IMG/VR virus record: IMGVR_UViG_3300025671_000552 | Span: 1 to 23,249 of that record | Source: a virus | Direction: 5' to 3' (one strand) | DNA: 23,249 bases | Shown here: positions 15,675-20,175 of the stretch, one piece after another | How positions within the stretch are numbered: position 1 is the stretch's first letter | How the letters are laid out: each line of letters starts with the position of its first letter | Translations under genes and position numbers: made by a program | The notes under the pieces: model-generated | Told to the model about the DNA's origin: nothing | Databases searched by the model: none | Seen by the model: the letters and a program-made list of their open reading frames with translations, nothing else

Positions 15675-16292
15675 TTAGTACCTTACACTGATTAAAGAAT
15701 AGTCCTCAATAACTTGCGGCGGCTTTCCTCGGCCATCAATATTCATGGCAGCTCGCATTTTACCACCACGCCCAGAATCAGCCGGTGTGCCATATGCCTC
15801 TGCCCTGAAGTAATCAGCCTTAGAGATTTGATCTGTTATAACGAAAGATAGCTTAGAAGCTAACGCATAGGTGAGCAGCTCAATAAAGTAAGGCGGCATT
15901 TTGCTTTCATCTACTGTCGCCTGGTAGTCAATGTAAACTTCTTCAAAGTTTGTATAGACCTGATCTTGGTAGATTTCCCAGCCGTATCTTACCGGCAACT
16001 GGCCAATGCCAGAGCTTTGAAACAGCGCTATAACGCCAGAAAGCATATCGCCTGGCATTTGATAAGCATACTTCCATTCGTCTACTGGAGCAGCAGCCAA
16101 TCGAGCAAGCTGTTCTTTTTGAACGCTCCAGCTCCAAAGGTAGCTTGATAAAAGAGTATCGCGCAGATCTGGGTATAATCTATCGCAAGCCTGGGCCGCA
16201 TCGCTTCCTTCTGTAAACGAAGAAATGGGCGCGGCACCCAACAGGATTAGAGCATCTGAGCAGATTGAGAGTGAAGTATCACCAGCGGCCAT
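15675..16292 (-). CDS. Tail adaptor protein (tail tubular protein A / gp11-type)
   Basis: The protein has 205 residues, close to T7 gp11 (196). Its N-terminus (TSLSICSDALILLGAAPISS) and the following SYLWSWSVQKEQLARLA, then WKYAYQMPGDML, are typical of the adaptor that rings the portal and receives the nozzle. The C-terminus (MNIDGRGKPPQVIEDYSLISVRY) is also characteristic. It precedes the nozzle gene by one base. AGGAGGG lies about five bases before the ATG on the minus strand, a strong ribosome binding site. This gene restarts translation after the hairpin at 16316-16333. Confidence 0.9.
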   Translation of the reverse strand: MAAGDTSLSICSDALILLGAAPISSFTEGSDAAQACDRLYPDLRDTLLSSYLWSWSVQKEQLARLAAAPVDEWKYAYQMPGDMLSGVIALFQSSGIGQLPVRYGWEIYQDQVYTNFEEVYIDYQATVDESKMPPYFIELLTYALASKLSFVITDQISKADYFRAEAYGTPADSGRGGKMRAAMNIDGRGKPPQVIEDYSLISVRY

Positions 16293-16315
16293 ATTGCCCT
16301 CCTGTTAGTGGGGAA

Positions 16316-16333
16316 GGGGAGCCGAAGCCCCCC
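16316..16333 (-). terminator. UUCG-capped GC hairpin between decoration and adaptor genes
   Basis: On the minus-strand RNA, GGGGGGC (16327-16333) pairs with GCTCCCC (16316-16322) around the loop TTCG (16323-16326). This is a seven-base-pair stem with one G-U pair and the very stable C(UUCG)G loop. The G-U pair becomes an A-C mismatch on the opposite strand, so the structure fits transcription of this strand. It begins five bases after the decoration gene stop. It is followed by TTCCCC, not a run of T, so it is not a classical intrinsic terminator. Partial termination, pausing, or protection of capsid mRNA from 3' decay are all possible. Confidence 0.6.
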
Positions 16334-16338
16334 AACCT

Positions 16339-16578
16339 TTAGATAACTGCCGTTGTAATAACGCCAGATGTATTTGTAGCAACAAGGGTCTGACCACCAT
16401 CGCTACCGTATGTATAGATCCAATCACCAGTAGTGATAAGAGCTTGAACGGTATTGAAGTAACCAGAACCAGCAATAGCAGCTTTGTTGTCACCAGATGA
16501 CTTATAGCTATAAATTGCTGGAGCATTGCCGCTTTTAGAAGCGCCAACTGTTGCCCAATTTGCAGATGCGAATGCCAT
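16339..16578 (-). CDS. Small probable head decoration or head-fibre protein
   Basis: The protein has 79 residues, begins MAFASANWATVGASKSGN and contains IAGSGYFNTVQALITTGDWI. It ends in a beta-rich Thr/Val stretch. I recognise this compact beta pattern with the SGYFN motif as a small protein found directly after major capsid genes in many phages, usually annotated as hypothetical or as a head fibre/decoration protein. It lies 15 bases after the capsid gene and would share its abundant mRNA, as expected for a stoichiometric capsid component. No enzymatic motif is present. Confidence 0.75.
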   Translation of the reverse strand: MAFASANWATVGASKSGNAPAIYSYKSSGDNKAAIAGSGYFNTVQALITTGDWIYTYGSDGGQTLVATNTSGVITTAVI

Positions 16579-16593
16579 TGTCTAATCTCCTAA

Positions 16594-17427
16594 TTATTCG
16601 GTGCAAGAAATTTTGACAATGCCTTCACCGTCGATTGCAACAGAACCGGCAGAGAACATCGAGCTAACCAAGAATGACGTTTTTTCTGGAACGTAATTTA
16701 CTTCGGTTTTCTGCGACATTGACTCAGCGTAGCCCATTGAATCCTGGTGCCAAGCAAAACAGGTGCGAGTAGAAGGCTTAGGAATACCACCCTCATCACG
16801 ATCACCCATAGTCAAAATGGTGAAGCCCATGAACGTGTTGATCTCACCTTGCACAAGAGCCTTTACAGCAGCAAAGTCTTGGCTAGTGATTTCAGTTTCA
16901 CCAAGCAATGCGTCAAGCTGAGAAGCATGCATGAGCAGTCTGCGACCCTCGGCGGGTACGTTCTTCTCATTCAATGCTTTAGCTGTAGCGCGTAGCTTTT
17001 CAATGTTCATGTTGGTGCCAGCACCGCCCACAGTTGTTGCAACTGTAGATGTACCAGTGGCCGCGTTCAGAGCATCAATCATAATCTGATCCATACGGCG
17101 AGCGATAGATTTAGATACGACTTGAACCAACTCAGAGCGCTCATCAAAGTTGATGTGCGATTGCTGGAAGATGTCTGAATATTCTGCCGCGATGTAATCT
17201 TCCATCGTTGCAGTTACTCGACCATAAGTCACGTTTAGTGGTGTGACATCAGTTTGTGGAACGCGAAGTGTAGCAACACCTTTTCCGATTGTGGGAAACT
17301 TTACAGTATTACCGGCTACTCCGGTGCGTGTCCGCATCGTGCCGCGAAGCAGCGATTCGGCTTGATACGCTTGTTTGACCTCAGAGTCGAAAAGATCAAC
17401 AAACGCCGTTGTGACGTTCTGCGCCAT
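16594..17427 (-). CDS. Major capsid protein
   Basis: The protein has 277 residues, shorter than T7 gp10A (345) but normal for the small HK97-fold capsid proteins of many marine podoviruses. It starts MAQNVTTAFVDLFDSEVKQA, then has KFPTIGKGVATLRVPQTDVT, typical of the N-arm and E-loop region. FQQSHINFDERSELVQVVSK leads into the long spine helix with RRMDQIMIDAL. The later part includes EGRRLLMHASQLDALLG and the C-terminal SSMFSAGSVAIDGEGIVKIS. It follows the scaffold gene after a structured 168-base gap and has the best ribosome binding site in the window (AGGAGGT). Frameshifted minor capsid forms, as in T7 10B, are not evident. Confidence 0.93.
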   Translation of the reverse strand: MAQNVTTAFVDLFDSEVKQAYQAESLLRGTMRTRTGVAGNTVKFPTIGKGVATLRVPQTDVTPLNVTYGRVTATMEDYIAAEYSDIFQQSHINFDERSELVQVVSKSIARRMDQIMIDALNAATGTSTVATTVGGAGTNMNIEKLRATAKALNEKNVPAEGRRLLMHASQLDALLGETEITSQDFAAVKALVQGEINTFMGFTILTMGDRDEGGIPKPSTRTCFAWHQDSMGYAESMSQKTEVNYVPEKTSFLVSSMFSAGSVAIDGEGIVKISCTE

Positions 17428-17434
17428 TGCAGAT

Positions 17435-17441
17435 ACCTCCT
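17435..17441 (-). promoter_or_regulatory. Strong ribosome binding site of the capsid gene
   Basis: AGGAGGT on the minus strand, seven bases before the capsid ATG, is a near-complete match to the anti-Shine-Dalgarno sequence and is stronger than most sites in this window. It lies just downstream of a structured RNA region, in an unpaired-looking segment. Confidence 0.85.
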
Positions 17442-17456
17442 ATTGGGTTTCAACAA

Positions 17457-17606
17457 AACGCTTCCGTTATCCGAGGGTCGGGCGGTCGCTTGCGCGTTAT
17501 GGCCGCGCCAGCCAGTAGAATACTACATCCAACGGGCCGGTGCGCGGTTAGCCGTTAAAGCTAAAATACACGCAAGCGATACTTATTGCAAGAGTTTAGG
17601 CTCTTT
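17457..17606 (-). ncRNA. Candidate structured RNA (three-way junction with flanking hairpins) in the scaffold-capsid gap
   Basis: The minus-strand sequence can form a nested set of helices. An outer 11-bp stem pairs 17569-17579 with 17486-17496 (TCGCTTGCGTG with CGCGCAAGCGA, one G-U). It encloses a hairpin TTAGC/GCTAA (17560-17564 with 17548-17552, 7-base loop). Immediately next to that is a long arm: CCGCG/CGCGG (17543-17547 with 17503-17507), a two-base bulge, CCGGCC/GGCTGG (17535-17540 with 17508-17513), and GTAG/CTAC around TATT. Downstream are CCGA-CCC-TCGG (17471-17481) and AACG-GAAG-CGTT (17457-17468). Upstream, AAGAG/CTCTT (17590-17594 with 17601-17605) straddles the scaffold stop. 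Both G-U pairs in the large stems favour this strand. It may be a leader controlling capsid translation, an RNA processing site, or a separate small RNA. No known family is recognised. Confidence 0.6.
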
Positions 17607-18616: not shown

Positions 18617-20175
18617 TGCATTGCCTCCATTGTGGCCCCTCCATCAGTTGCAGCGGGTGGGCCTTGTTCTGCCATCATTGCTTGCTGCATCTGTTCCATC
18701 ATCATTTGCTGCTCTTCTGGTGTGGTAAGCAGTTCTTGGTTTATGTTCATCTTGCTTGCGATGAATTGTGTTATGCGCGGGATAGACAGAGCTGCTTGAC
18801 CCTGTGGGCCGAGAGCATTGGCGATCTGCATAAACTGCACAATATCGTTTACCTCTTGTAGTTTCTGAGCCTGAGCCAAAGGAGCTACCGGCGTAACCTT
18901 AACCTCAACGCCATTCACCTTCAGCGGTAGGTCGATGAAGCCCTGCTGATCCATGATAAACAGAATGCGCGATACAATTGGAACCATTGTCTCATCTATC
19001 AACCGGCCAAAGGCAGATCCTAGATTAGTCGCAAGCTCACGAGATCTCTCTGCAATCTCTGTTGCTGATCGAGCAGACATATTGTCAGGCGGCAACGTGT
19101 CATCCATCAGGATCTTCTTCACGTTCATACGCAGATCATTCATTACGATCTGGCTTACGTTAAAGTCACCGGCTCTAGGGAGAGGAGCCAGTGACGCACC
19201 CTGGGGGCCACCGTTACGAGCGACACCGATAACCGCGCCAGGCTGTATCTTAATGTTCTGAGGATTGAGAACTCCATCATCTGCCGCCGTATATACACCA
19301 GCGATTGCCAGAGAAGCATTCTTGAGAACCAGCTCAACAGTTTTGTTAAGCGTTTTAATGTCAGAAATGGCTGTAACCAATGGGCCACGGCCATATATCT
19401 CACCAGCCACCTTCATATATCGAGCAACAATAAACGGCGATGACTTCATTGTTCGGTAGACAAGCTCTTGCTTCTTGCCTGGCCAGATAACGTGATAGCA
19501 ATACATAGCCCGCTCATAGTCATAGATAACCGCATCCATTAGATCGATCTCTTTAGACGGTGATTGCTCTATTGCTTGAGCTAGTTCGCTGGTCATTTCC
19601 GCATCGGGAAACTCTTGTGGTATCGCTTCGGCTTTCATGCGGAGCTTGCGGTAAACATTATCAACGTTTCCGAATGTACCTTCCTCGATAGCAACAAGAT
19701 ACTGAGGAATAGGTGTAAAGCGAATAGGCGTAACCTCATCACCAGGCGTCACCATCATCACGGCAGTACCCACGCAAAGATCCAACAAGAACTCACCCAT
19801 AGCCAGATCAAAGTTAGTTTGCCGCATGATTTCAAACATACGCGTGGTATAAGCATCGAGCGCTGCCTGAGCCTGTGGCTGTTGTTGTTGTGGAATGCCA
19901 GTGCCAGCCTCTAGGCGGCACCATTCCTTTTGCGGGGGAAACAAGCCAGCCTGGATGCGATTAGCAAAGCGCTGAGTGGCGTGAATGGCTGTGGAGTCAA
20001 AGACCCTTGCCATCTTACCTTTGCCTGGCACACCGCCCTCATAATAGCCTGAGTATAGGTTTCGTTGCGGAAGAGCGAACTCATAGCAATCTTCATAGAT
20101 AGAACGCCACTCATCCTTGCGAGCCTGAGCTTTGGCTTCACGTTCAATAATATCTTTTACATTCAGCCGAGCCAT
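18613..20175 (-). CDS. Portal (head-to-tail connecting) protein
   Basis: The protein has 520 residues, near T7 gp8 (536). It shows the usual Head-tail connector pattern: an N-terminal helix with EWRSIYEDCYEFALPQRNLY, then VFDSTAIHATQRFANRIQAG and LFPPQKEWCRLEAG. A central YHVIWPGKK region is followed by SPFIVARYMKVAGEIYGRGP and the conserved long helix region around SARSATEIAERSRELATNLG. The C-terminal 50 residues are Gln/Met rich (TTPEEQQMMMEQMQQAMMAE), a typical disordered end. It forms the dodecameric channel at the packaging vertex. It follows the 84-aa basic protein by four bases. Confidence 0.95.
   Translation of the reverse strand: MARLNVKDIIEREAKAQARKDEWRSIYEDCYEFALPQRNLYSGYYEGGVPGKGKMARVFDSTAIHATQRFANRIQAGLFPPQKEWCRLEAGTGIPQQQQPQAQAALDAYTTRMFEIMRQTNFDLAMGEFLLDLCVGTAVMMVTPGDEVTPIRFTPIPQYLVAIEEGTFGNVDNVYRKLRMKAEAIPQEFPDAEMTSELAQAIEQSPSKEIDLMDAVIYDYERAMYCYHVIWPGKKQELVYRTMKSSPFIVARYMKVAGEIYGRGPLVTAISDIKTLNKTVELVLKNASLAIAGVYTAADDGVLNPQNIKIQPGAVIGVARNGGPQGASLAPLPRAGDFNVSQIVMNDLRMNVKKILMDDTLPPDNMSARSATEIAERSRELATNLGSAFGRLIDETMVPIVSRILFIMDQQGFIDLPLKVNGVEVKVTPVAPLAQAQKLQEVNDIVQFMQIANALGPQGQAALSIPRITQFIASKMNINQELLTTPEEQQMMMEQMQQAMMAEQGPPAATDGGATMEAMQ

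Follow-up and report, generated by a model that had tools for sequence, protein, structure and literature searches.

T7-like phages need their capsid protein in hundreds of copies and their tail adaptor in about a dozen. In the DNA analysed here (the window, 23,249 nucleotides of IMG/VR virus record IMGVR_UViG_3300025671_000552), a short G/C-rich sequence able to fold into an RNA hairpin stands at the boundary between the capsid and tail genes, which raises the question of what such an element does at this place and which RNA polymerase would make it.

The hairpin and its neighbours

The gene set of the window fits a T7-like podovirus and, in addition to the genes listed below, includes a T7-type capsid assembly protein (PF05396), a head-tail connector (PF12236) and a further tail protein (PHROG 376). 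Among isolates, Methylophilales phage MEP301 is the closest, with 61.6% identity in the capsid protein and 50.7% identity between the tail adaptor of the window and the MEP301 tail tubular protein A; a contig derived from a bacterial bin (L333) is closer, with a capsid identity of 68%. The features that bear on the hairpin are as follows.

15675-16292, minus strand: tail adaptor (tail tubular protein A) gene, 205 aa; PHROG 394 tail protein, E 9.3e-34
16297-16303, minus strand: AGGAGGG, identified by eye in the sequence as the Shine-Dalgarno-like element of the tail-adaptor gene
16304-16315, minus strand: tail of the hairpin, UUCCCCACUAAC, a pyrimidine-rich, degenerate U-tract of two U, assigned from the sequence and the T profile of the clade
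16316-16333, minus (coding) strand: conserved RNA hairpin, assigned from sequence, energy, and conservation with covariation in relatives; 5′ arm GGGGGGC (16333-16327), UUCG loop (16326-16323), 3′ arm GCUCCCC (16322-16316)
16339-16578, minus strand: capsid decoration-like gene, 79 aa; AlphaFold model matching LME-1 capsid chain 9eg4_H
16594-17427, minus strand: major capsid protein gene, 277 aa; PF19821, E 1.7e-70; PHROG 3437, E 2e-52
17428-17595, minus strand: structured leader of the capsid gene; 43 columns invariant among 20 aligned sequences, with compensated pairs

Direct reading and a stem-loop scan give a C(UUCG)G loop on a stem of seven base pairs, one of which is G·U and the other six G-C. 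The initial annotation had described seven pairs made of G and C throughout; the number of pairs and the loop were borne out, and the G·U pair corrects the composition. The same annotation had put the stem five bases past the decoration gene, upstream of the tail adaptor gene and with no T-run behind it, and the coordinates and the tail sequence agree with this: the decoration-like ORF has its stop codon at 16341-16339, the stem begins 5 nt downstream of it, the hairpin ends 23 nt upstream of the tail-adaptor ATG (which begins at 16292), and the sequence 3′ of the hairpin, UUCCCCACUAACAGGAGGG, carries no T-run. The 79-aa ORF finds no family match in Pfam or PHROGs. Nevertheless, the proposed name of decoration gene is reasonable, because the AlphaFold model of its product (mean pLDDT 92.8, 39 homologues) matches chain H of the icosahedral capsid of phage LME-1 (9eg4, cryo-EM) with an E value of 4.6e-05, a TM score of 0.84 and 26% identity.

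The energy of the stem, −13.2 kcal/mol, ranks third among the ungapped stem-loops of the coding strand in a scan with loops of 3-8 nt, and a second scan with loops of up to 10 nt places the hairpin fourth of five stem-loops at −11 or better, two of which are wholly intergenic in a window that has 742 intergenic bases in total. CUUCGG occurs nine times on the two strands of the window and twice on the minus strand, the stem-closed minus-strand copy being the hairpin. A search of Rfam returned no match at gathering score in the window, and the hairpin site itself gave a sub-threshold CrcZ match only (13.4 bits compared to a gathering score of 95, E 0.62). When a 91-nt region was folded and compared with shuffled sequences, the z value was −1.46 and 21 of 200 shuffles folded equally well. 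This single-sequence folding statistic is weak, and the significance of the hairpin comes from its relatives.

Two further stems of the window are recorded here as separate observations. One is a second strong intergenic hairpin on the minus strand (666-689, in the gap 533-698), which reads CGCUCACCA(AUAUAC)UGGUGGGCG, has an energy of −14.2 kcal/mol and is without a U-tract; the other, a stem of −18.2 kcal/mol, lies inside the head-tail connector gene (19165-19195, minus strand).

Conservation and covariation in related phages

Conservation of the stem in relatives had been set beforehand as a check on the hairpin. Capsid-based searches supplied 80 window-type, 80 MEP301-type, 80 SI2-type, 2 CKB-S2-type and 80 Greip-type loci, to which named phages were added; one locus recurs under the same identifier across these searches. 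Of the resulting 331 loci, 317 were scored and 14, in which the capsid or tail-adaptor match was missing, cut or misplaced, were left out. The scored loci reduce to 196 distinct sequences when compared over the last 60 nt upstream of the tail-adaptor start. A hairpin was called if its energy was −12 kcal/mol or better and if it ended 10-30 nt before that start; some energies in this survey were calculated on DNA letters (T for U) and lack the UUCG bonus (−12.3 instead of −13.2 kcal/mol for the stem of the window).

By this definition, the hairpin is present at the capsid/tail boundary in 44 of 45 window-clade, 60 of 64 MEP301-type and 31 of 35 SI2-type distinct sequences, as well as in both CKB-S2-type sequences and in the single sequences of Vibrio 1.254 and Hodr. 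It precedes the tail-adaptor gene in 3 of 47 Greip-type sequences and is absent from the one HTVC028P sequence. The same test was passed by 18 of 980 dinucleotide shuffles, by none of 194 regions upstream of the capsid gene and by 7 of 579 windows within the tail-adaptor gene. The hairpin is found far beyond chance, and relatives keep the stem, with covariation, so that one half of the refuting condition set beforehand was survived. The lone miss in the window clade (L031) does carry the hairpin, a wrong start codon having been chosen for it, and the other misses are MEP301-type (L129, L137, L164 and L166) or SI2-type (L217, L224, L227 and L245). Eight identical window-type loci that appeared to be without the hairpin in an earlier pass were an artefact, a spurious out-of-frame ORF having been taken as the upstream gene. 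All four related contigs from bacterial bins (L333, L334, L335 and L336) have the hairpin.

Since MAFFT misaligns stems whose loops differ in size, an alignment of the gap sequences analysed with RNAalifold (44 sequences, the near-duplicate L033 being left out of the 45) yielded only 5 pairs, and pairs were therefore counted in register, eight of them outward from the loop. Counted in this way, the paired cells amount to 196 of 200 in the window clade, 232 of 232 in the MEP301 type and 160 of 160 in the SI2 type (25, 29 and 20 distinct stems, respectively), compared to means of 72, 53 and 69% after column shuffles and to 38-67% after sliding one arm, figures that are an upper bound because picking the best helix biases the count towards paired cells; what counts is how many pair types each position shows. 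Both sides have changed in 43 cells of the window clade, 104 of the MEP301 type and 35 of the SI2 type.

The kind of pairs that replace Watson-Crick pairs bears on the strand at which the stem is selected. Under a strict symmetric rule, in which a mismatch was counted only if it was single and lay between Watson-Crick pairs, internal G·U pairs outnumber A·C mismatches by 116 to 4 over 98 distinct stems and by 20 to 0 in the window clade. The opposite strand would show A·C at these positions, so selection sees the sense RNA, and the hairpin acts at the level of the coding-strand transcript. An earlier, looser count gave 247 G·U and 91 A·C over 128 distinct stems and did not show the excess in the window clade (57 and 60, respectively) because its helices were over-extended.

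The relatives also provided observations on the surroundings of the hairpin. L003 is 99% identical to the window in the capsid and 97% in the tail adaptor but only 67% in the decoration protein, and L040 has a differently paired stem (GGGGCGG/CCGCCCC) adjoining a tail-adaptor match of 100% identity, so that in these loci the decoration gene and the hairpin vary independently of their neighbours. L335, a contig of 186,520 bases from a Hyphomicrobiales MAG, holds relatives of the capsid, decoration and tail-adaptor genes inside a long contig of a bacterial bin, where a prophage or a mis-binned phage of the window's group may exist. Most Greip-type pelagiphages carry another hairpin, positioned right after the capsid stop codon, with a stem of about 12 bp and a near-fixed purine-rich loop, GGAAGCGAGAGUGGAA, the core of which occurs in 30 of 45 distinct segments (for example, at about 2742-2781 of L084). 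Its stem covaries in a comparison that displayed 40 of the 45 pelagiphage-type segments, the next start codon is a few nucleotides downstream and a U-tract is absent; within the loop, tandem G·A pairs topped by a GAGA loop could form.

U-tract, polymerase and comparison with known elements

In the window clade, the loop is UUCG in 14 of 44 hairpins, GCAA in 7, GAAA in 5 and GUAA in 2, with other sequences in the remainder and sizes of 3-6 nt; stem length is 7-12 bp and energies range from −13.2 to −21.5 kcal/mol. The 8 nt past the stem contain a mean of 5.0 T in the SI2 type, 3.5 in the MEP301 type and 2.98 in the window clade (UUCCCC in the window itself), and T after the last G-C pair fills 52 of 88 of the first two places in the window clade and 120 of 352 of the next eight. 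A U-tract, defined as at least 5 T in the 8 nt past the last G-C pair, is present in 28 of 32 SI2-type, both CKB-type and the one Vibrio sequence, and in 8 of 43 window-clade and 7 of 56 MEP301-type sequences scored. Three of the contigs from bacterial bins have it, namely L333 (a UUCG hairpin followed by UCCUUUUUU), L334 (UUUUU) and L336 (AGCCUUUU), and L335 does not.

A terminator score written here after that of d'Aubenton-Carafa, whose constants were sought and found in no paper, is positive in 29 of 32 SI2-type, both CKB-type, the one Vibrio, 9 of 56 MEP301-type and 9 of 44 window-clade sequences. With the same formula, T7 Tphi scores +22 and the hairpin of the window −19. On a tree of 147 capsid sequences (135 of them scored), a quick tree in which many forks are weakly supported, the state of the U-tract requires 16 changes; the hairpin stays constant while the U-tract comes and goes.

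The hairpin is placed with greater regularity relative to the downstream gene than to the upstream one. Its centre is 33.5 nt (sd 1.26) from the start codon and 17.3 nt (sd 2.33) from the upstream stop codon in the window clade, and 36.7 nt (sd 0.98) and 32.5 nt (sd 4.98), respectively, in the MEP301 type, with no clear difference between start and stop anchoring in the SI2 type; as the sequences are related, the test values for this anchoring are not strict probabilities. The base of the stem lies 18-24 nt upstream of the tail-adaptor start in the window clade, and a constant spacing of 20 nt may simply be the space that a ribosome requires.

Partial termination with a phage polymerase had been among the roles suggested in the initial annotation. 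The T7-type RNA polymerase family PF00940 was found neither in the window nor in any of 29 relatives' records (20 + 9), which included the full records of MEP301, SI2, CKB-S2 and Vibrio 1.254 together with IMG/VR records that may be fragments, as the window is; T7, as a positive control, gave E 9.9e-110. The MEP301 paper agrees, as its authors describe a phage that depends on its host and for which no RNA polymerase is reported (available text of PMC8024684), and the authors who described the Skadi pelagiphage report no viral RNA polymerase and could not identify terminators (available text of PMC10504331). As no T7-type polymerase was found in the window or in these 29 records, a terminator for a phage polymerase was rejected.

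The leader on the other side of the capsid gene (73% mean identity over 20 sequences, picked by the analyst from the loci of the window clade) is a strongly conserved multi-helix RNA with compensated helices and has no match in Rfam. Its conservation upholds the earlier suggestion that the capsid and decoration genes are bracketed by RNA structure. The beginning of the leader is promoter-like, with TTGCAA (17591-17586) and TATTTT (17568-17563) separated by 17 nt, and the MEP301 leader has TTGCAA, 17 nt and TATATT, both read by eye, the former from the alignment. This element is probably a promoter for the host polymerase. If it is, the capsid and decoration genes would constitute a unit bounded by the leader and the hairpin, much as phi10 and Tphi bound gene 10 of T7.

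Terminator Tphi of T7 works with the phage's own polymerase. The match in position that had been drawn between Tphi and the hairpin holds: the T7 record annotation has Tphi at 24210, the end of gene 10 at 24162 and the start of gene 11 at 24228, which is the same capsid/tail-adaptor gap, and both hairpins end shortly before the ribosome-binding site of the tail gene. However, TTTTTT follows Tphi whereas two U follow the hairpin of the window, and a T7-type polymerase was found neither in the window nor in its 29 relatives' records. Because the U-run and the phage polymerase, the two defining features, were tested and found absent, the hairpin may be called Tphi-like in position and probable effect and is not filed as a Tphi-type terminator.

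The GC-rich stem with its G-rich 5′ arm and C-rich 3′ arm is that of an intrinsic (Rho-independent) terminator, and SI2-type, Vibrio, CKB-S2 and bin-derived relatives have full U-tracts at the same place. The window clade differs in its degenerate U-tract and in a rule-based score that is not positive in 35 of 44 hairpins. The hairpin of the window is a candidate intrinsic terminator, with the hairpin feature present and the U-tract, as read from the sequence, marginal. Its tract, UUCCCCACU, closely resembles UUCCGCACG, the tract of a B. subtilis terminator that works in vivo and is the only one with two U in the available part of the study (PMC8060035). In long-read RNA data of the T7-like phage LUZ100, what appears to be a strong terminator directly follows the capsid gene (available text of PMC10134795); unlike the window phage, LUZ100 carries a T7-type polymerase and phage promoters.

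Tuerk reportedly described CUUCGG hairpins of T4 and other phages in 1988. Such hairpins are also treated in the available text of PMC8948821, and they share with the hairpin of the window a C(UUCG)G loop on a stem, an intergenic position and a phage mRNA; in the window clade, unlike in the T4 type, UUCG is optional (14 of 44). The intercistronic hairpins of the Rhodobacter puf operon, a precedent for mRNA stability (available part of PMC8625941, citing Klug 1987), are likewise stable hairpins between differently expressed genes of one operon, whereas the window has a single short hairpin, known from its sequence, between capsid and tail genes. The words 'terminator' and 'hairpin' do not occur in the main text of the MEP301 paper as available (PMC8024684), none of the terms sought occurs in PMC10580990, and no published description of the hairpin at the capsid/tail boundary was found in the literature searched. 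Capsid-end terminators and intergenic CUUCGG hairpins are already known; what is new, within that literature, is the deep, covarying conservation of a boundary hairpin with a labile U-tract in T7-like phages that depend on the host polymerase.

Candidate roles at the capsid/tail boundary

Combining these observations, we favour, with a probability of roughly one half (0.52), a leaky terminator for the host polymerase that also forms a protected 3′ boundary and enriches capsid mRNA over tail mRNA. According to this model, the window phage, a T7-like podovirus, would rely on the RNA polymerase of its host, and the hairpin would mark the 3′ boundary of the capsid-decoration mRNA. That polymerase would transcribe the capsid and decoration genes, probably from a promoter in the capsid leader; once the hairpin has been made, a fraction of the polymerases would stop just past it and the rest would read on into the tail genes; and transcripts with a 3′ end at the hairpin, whether formed there or by trimming, would be shielded from 3′ exonucleases. 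The net outcome would be more capsid and decoration mRNA than tail mRNA. Considering (i) the ordinary intrinsic terminators at the same place in nearby lineages, (ii) the two U that follow the hairpin of the window, and (iii) the tail genes that are still to be read, a leaky terminator explains most of the findings. The LUZ100 and B. subtilis terminators are precedents for it, the latter a solitary one, which counts against the model, as does the scarcity of the hairpin before the tail-adaptor gene in Greip-type pelagiphages (3 of 47). Partial termination in the window phage, protection of the 3′ end, the altered mRNA ratio and the promoter are what we infer from them. The initial annotation stands in regard to the T7 position, the conservation of the stem, the bracketing and the decoration gene, and its phage polymerase is abandoned.

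The poor terminator score, the labile U-tract and the anchoring to the start codon count against the model and lend some probability to roles in RNA stability and in translation. As the U-tract changes 16 times while the hairpin stays, the hairpin may have a job without termination, and an anchoring that is tighter to the downstream start than to the upstream stop counts against a plain terminator, which needs no such anchoring. A pure mRNA-stability element, in which no termination takes place and a downstream cut in the polycistronic RNA admits 3′ exonucleases, which halt at the hairpin so that the capsid-decoration segment outlives the tail segment, would account for a very stable stem without a U-tract in most of the window clade, for the conservation of the hairpin through the 16 changes of the U-tract and for the frequency of ultra-stable loop types (UUCG in 14 and GCAA, GAAA or GUAA in 14 of 44 window-clade hairpins), and it has the puf operon as a precedent (available part of PMC8625941). 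This explanation is rather improbable, for it leaves unexplained the full U-tract terminators at the exact place in many relatives and does not predict the anchoring to the start codon. The anchoring speaks for a translation-side element, in which the hairpin, at the upstream edge of the tail-adaptor ribosome-binding site, would insulate the site from ribosomes leaving the decoration gene or set initiation, keeping the tail adaptor low: the distance from centre to start hardly varies (window clade, 33.5 nt, sd 1.3; MEP301 type, 36.7 nt, sd 1.0), and in the window clade the stem base precedes the start by 18-24 nt. A scarcity of indels since divergence would fix the distance equally well, however, and masking of the Shine-Dalgarno sequence by the 3′ arm is not supported, and we consider a translation-side element unlikely. 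The idea of a masking switch had come from complementary stretches noticed by eye in certain relatives; it was rejected, as the sequences' own pairings have a mean of −6.73 compared to −7.20 for swapped ones (permutation p 0.956).

That one hairpin is strongly conserved at a fixed place would also suit an operator-like binding site for a phage or host protein, such as feedback by the capsid or decoration protein. The loops of the window clade, however, vary freely in sequence and in length (3-6 nt), as do several stem pairs, and no conserved unpaired signature is seen in that clade, making a protein site very improbable; an operator with a fixed loop was rejected outright on the varying loops. 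Least probable of all, to the point of being hardly credible, is a chance stem or a DNA-level palindrome (a cruciform or a recombination site) with no role as RNA. Its case consists of the weak single-sequence folding (z −1.46) and the looser count of 57 G·U to 60 A·C in the window clade, which came from over-extended helices, whereas 98-100% of stem cells are paired in relatives compared to 53-72% after column shuffles, and it is for the most part refuted by the excess of internal G·U over A·C (116 to 4 overall; window clade, 20 to 0), which a DNA palindrome would not produce. An RNase III site was set aside, a stem of 7-12 bp being short.

In addition to the leaky terminator, we put forward, tentatively and with a modest chance of being right, a wider proposal for host-polymerase-dependent T7-like marine phages. 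In these phages, a boundary hairpin anchored to the start codon and independent of the U-tract would set the capsid-to-tail ratio via protection of RNA ends or insulation of ribosomes, and the canonical terminator would be one of several interchangeable states, which include a U-tract, no U-tract and the purine-rich loop before the next start codon in pelagiphages. The natural variants with and without a U-tract could inform on the minimum U-tract that the host polymerase needs and on whether such hairpins end transcripts or protect them. T7 solves the problem of the capsid/tail ratio with its own polymerase, its promoters and Tphi. The marine relatives seem to be without a T7-type polymerase and yet keep the boundary hairpin through deep divergence. 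As no such polymerase is seen and the hairpin is kept, this solution at the capsid/tail boundary may be more general than the T7 polymerase.
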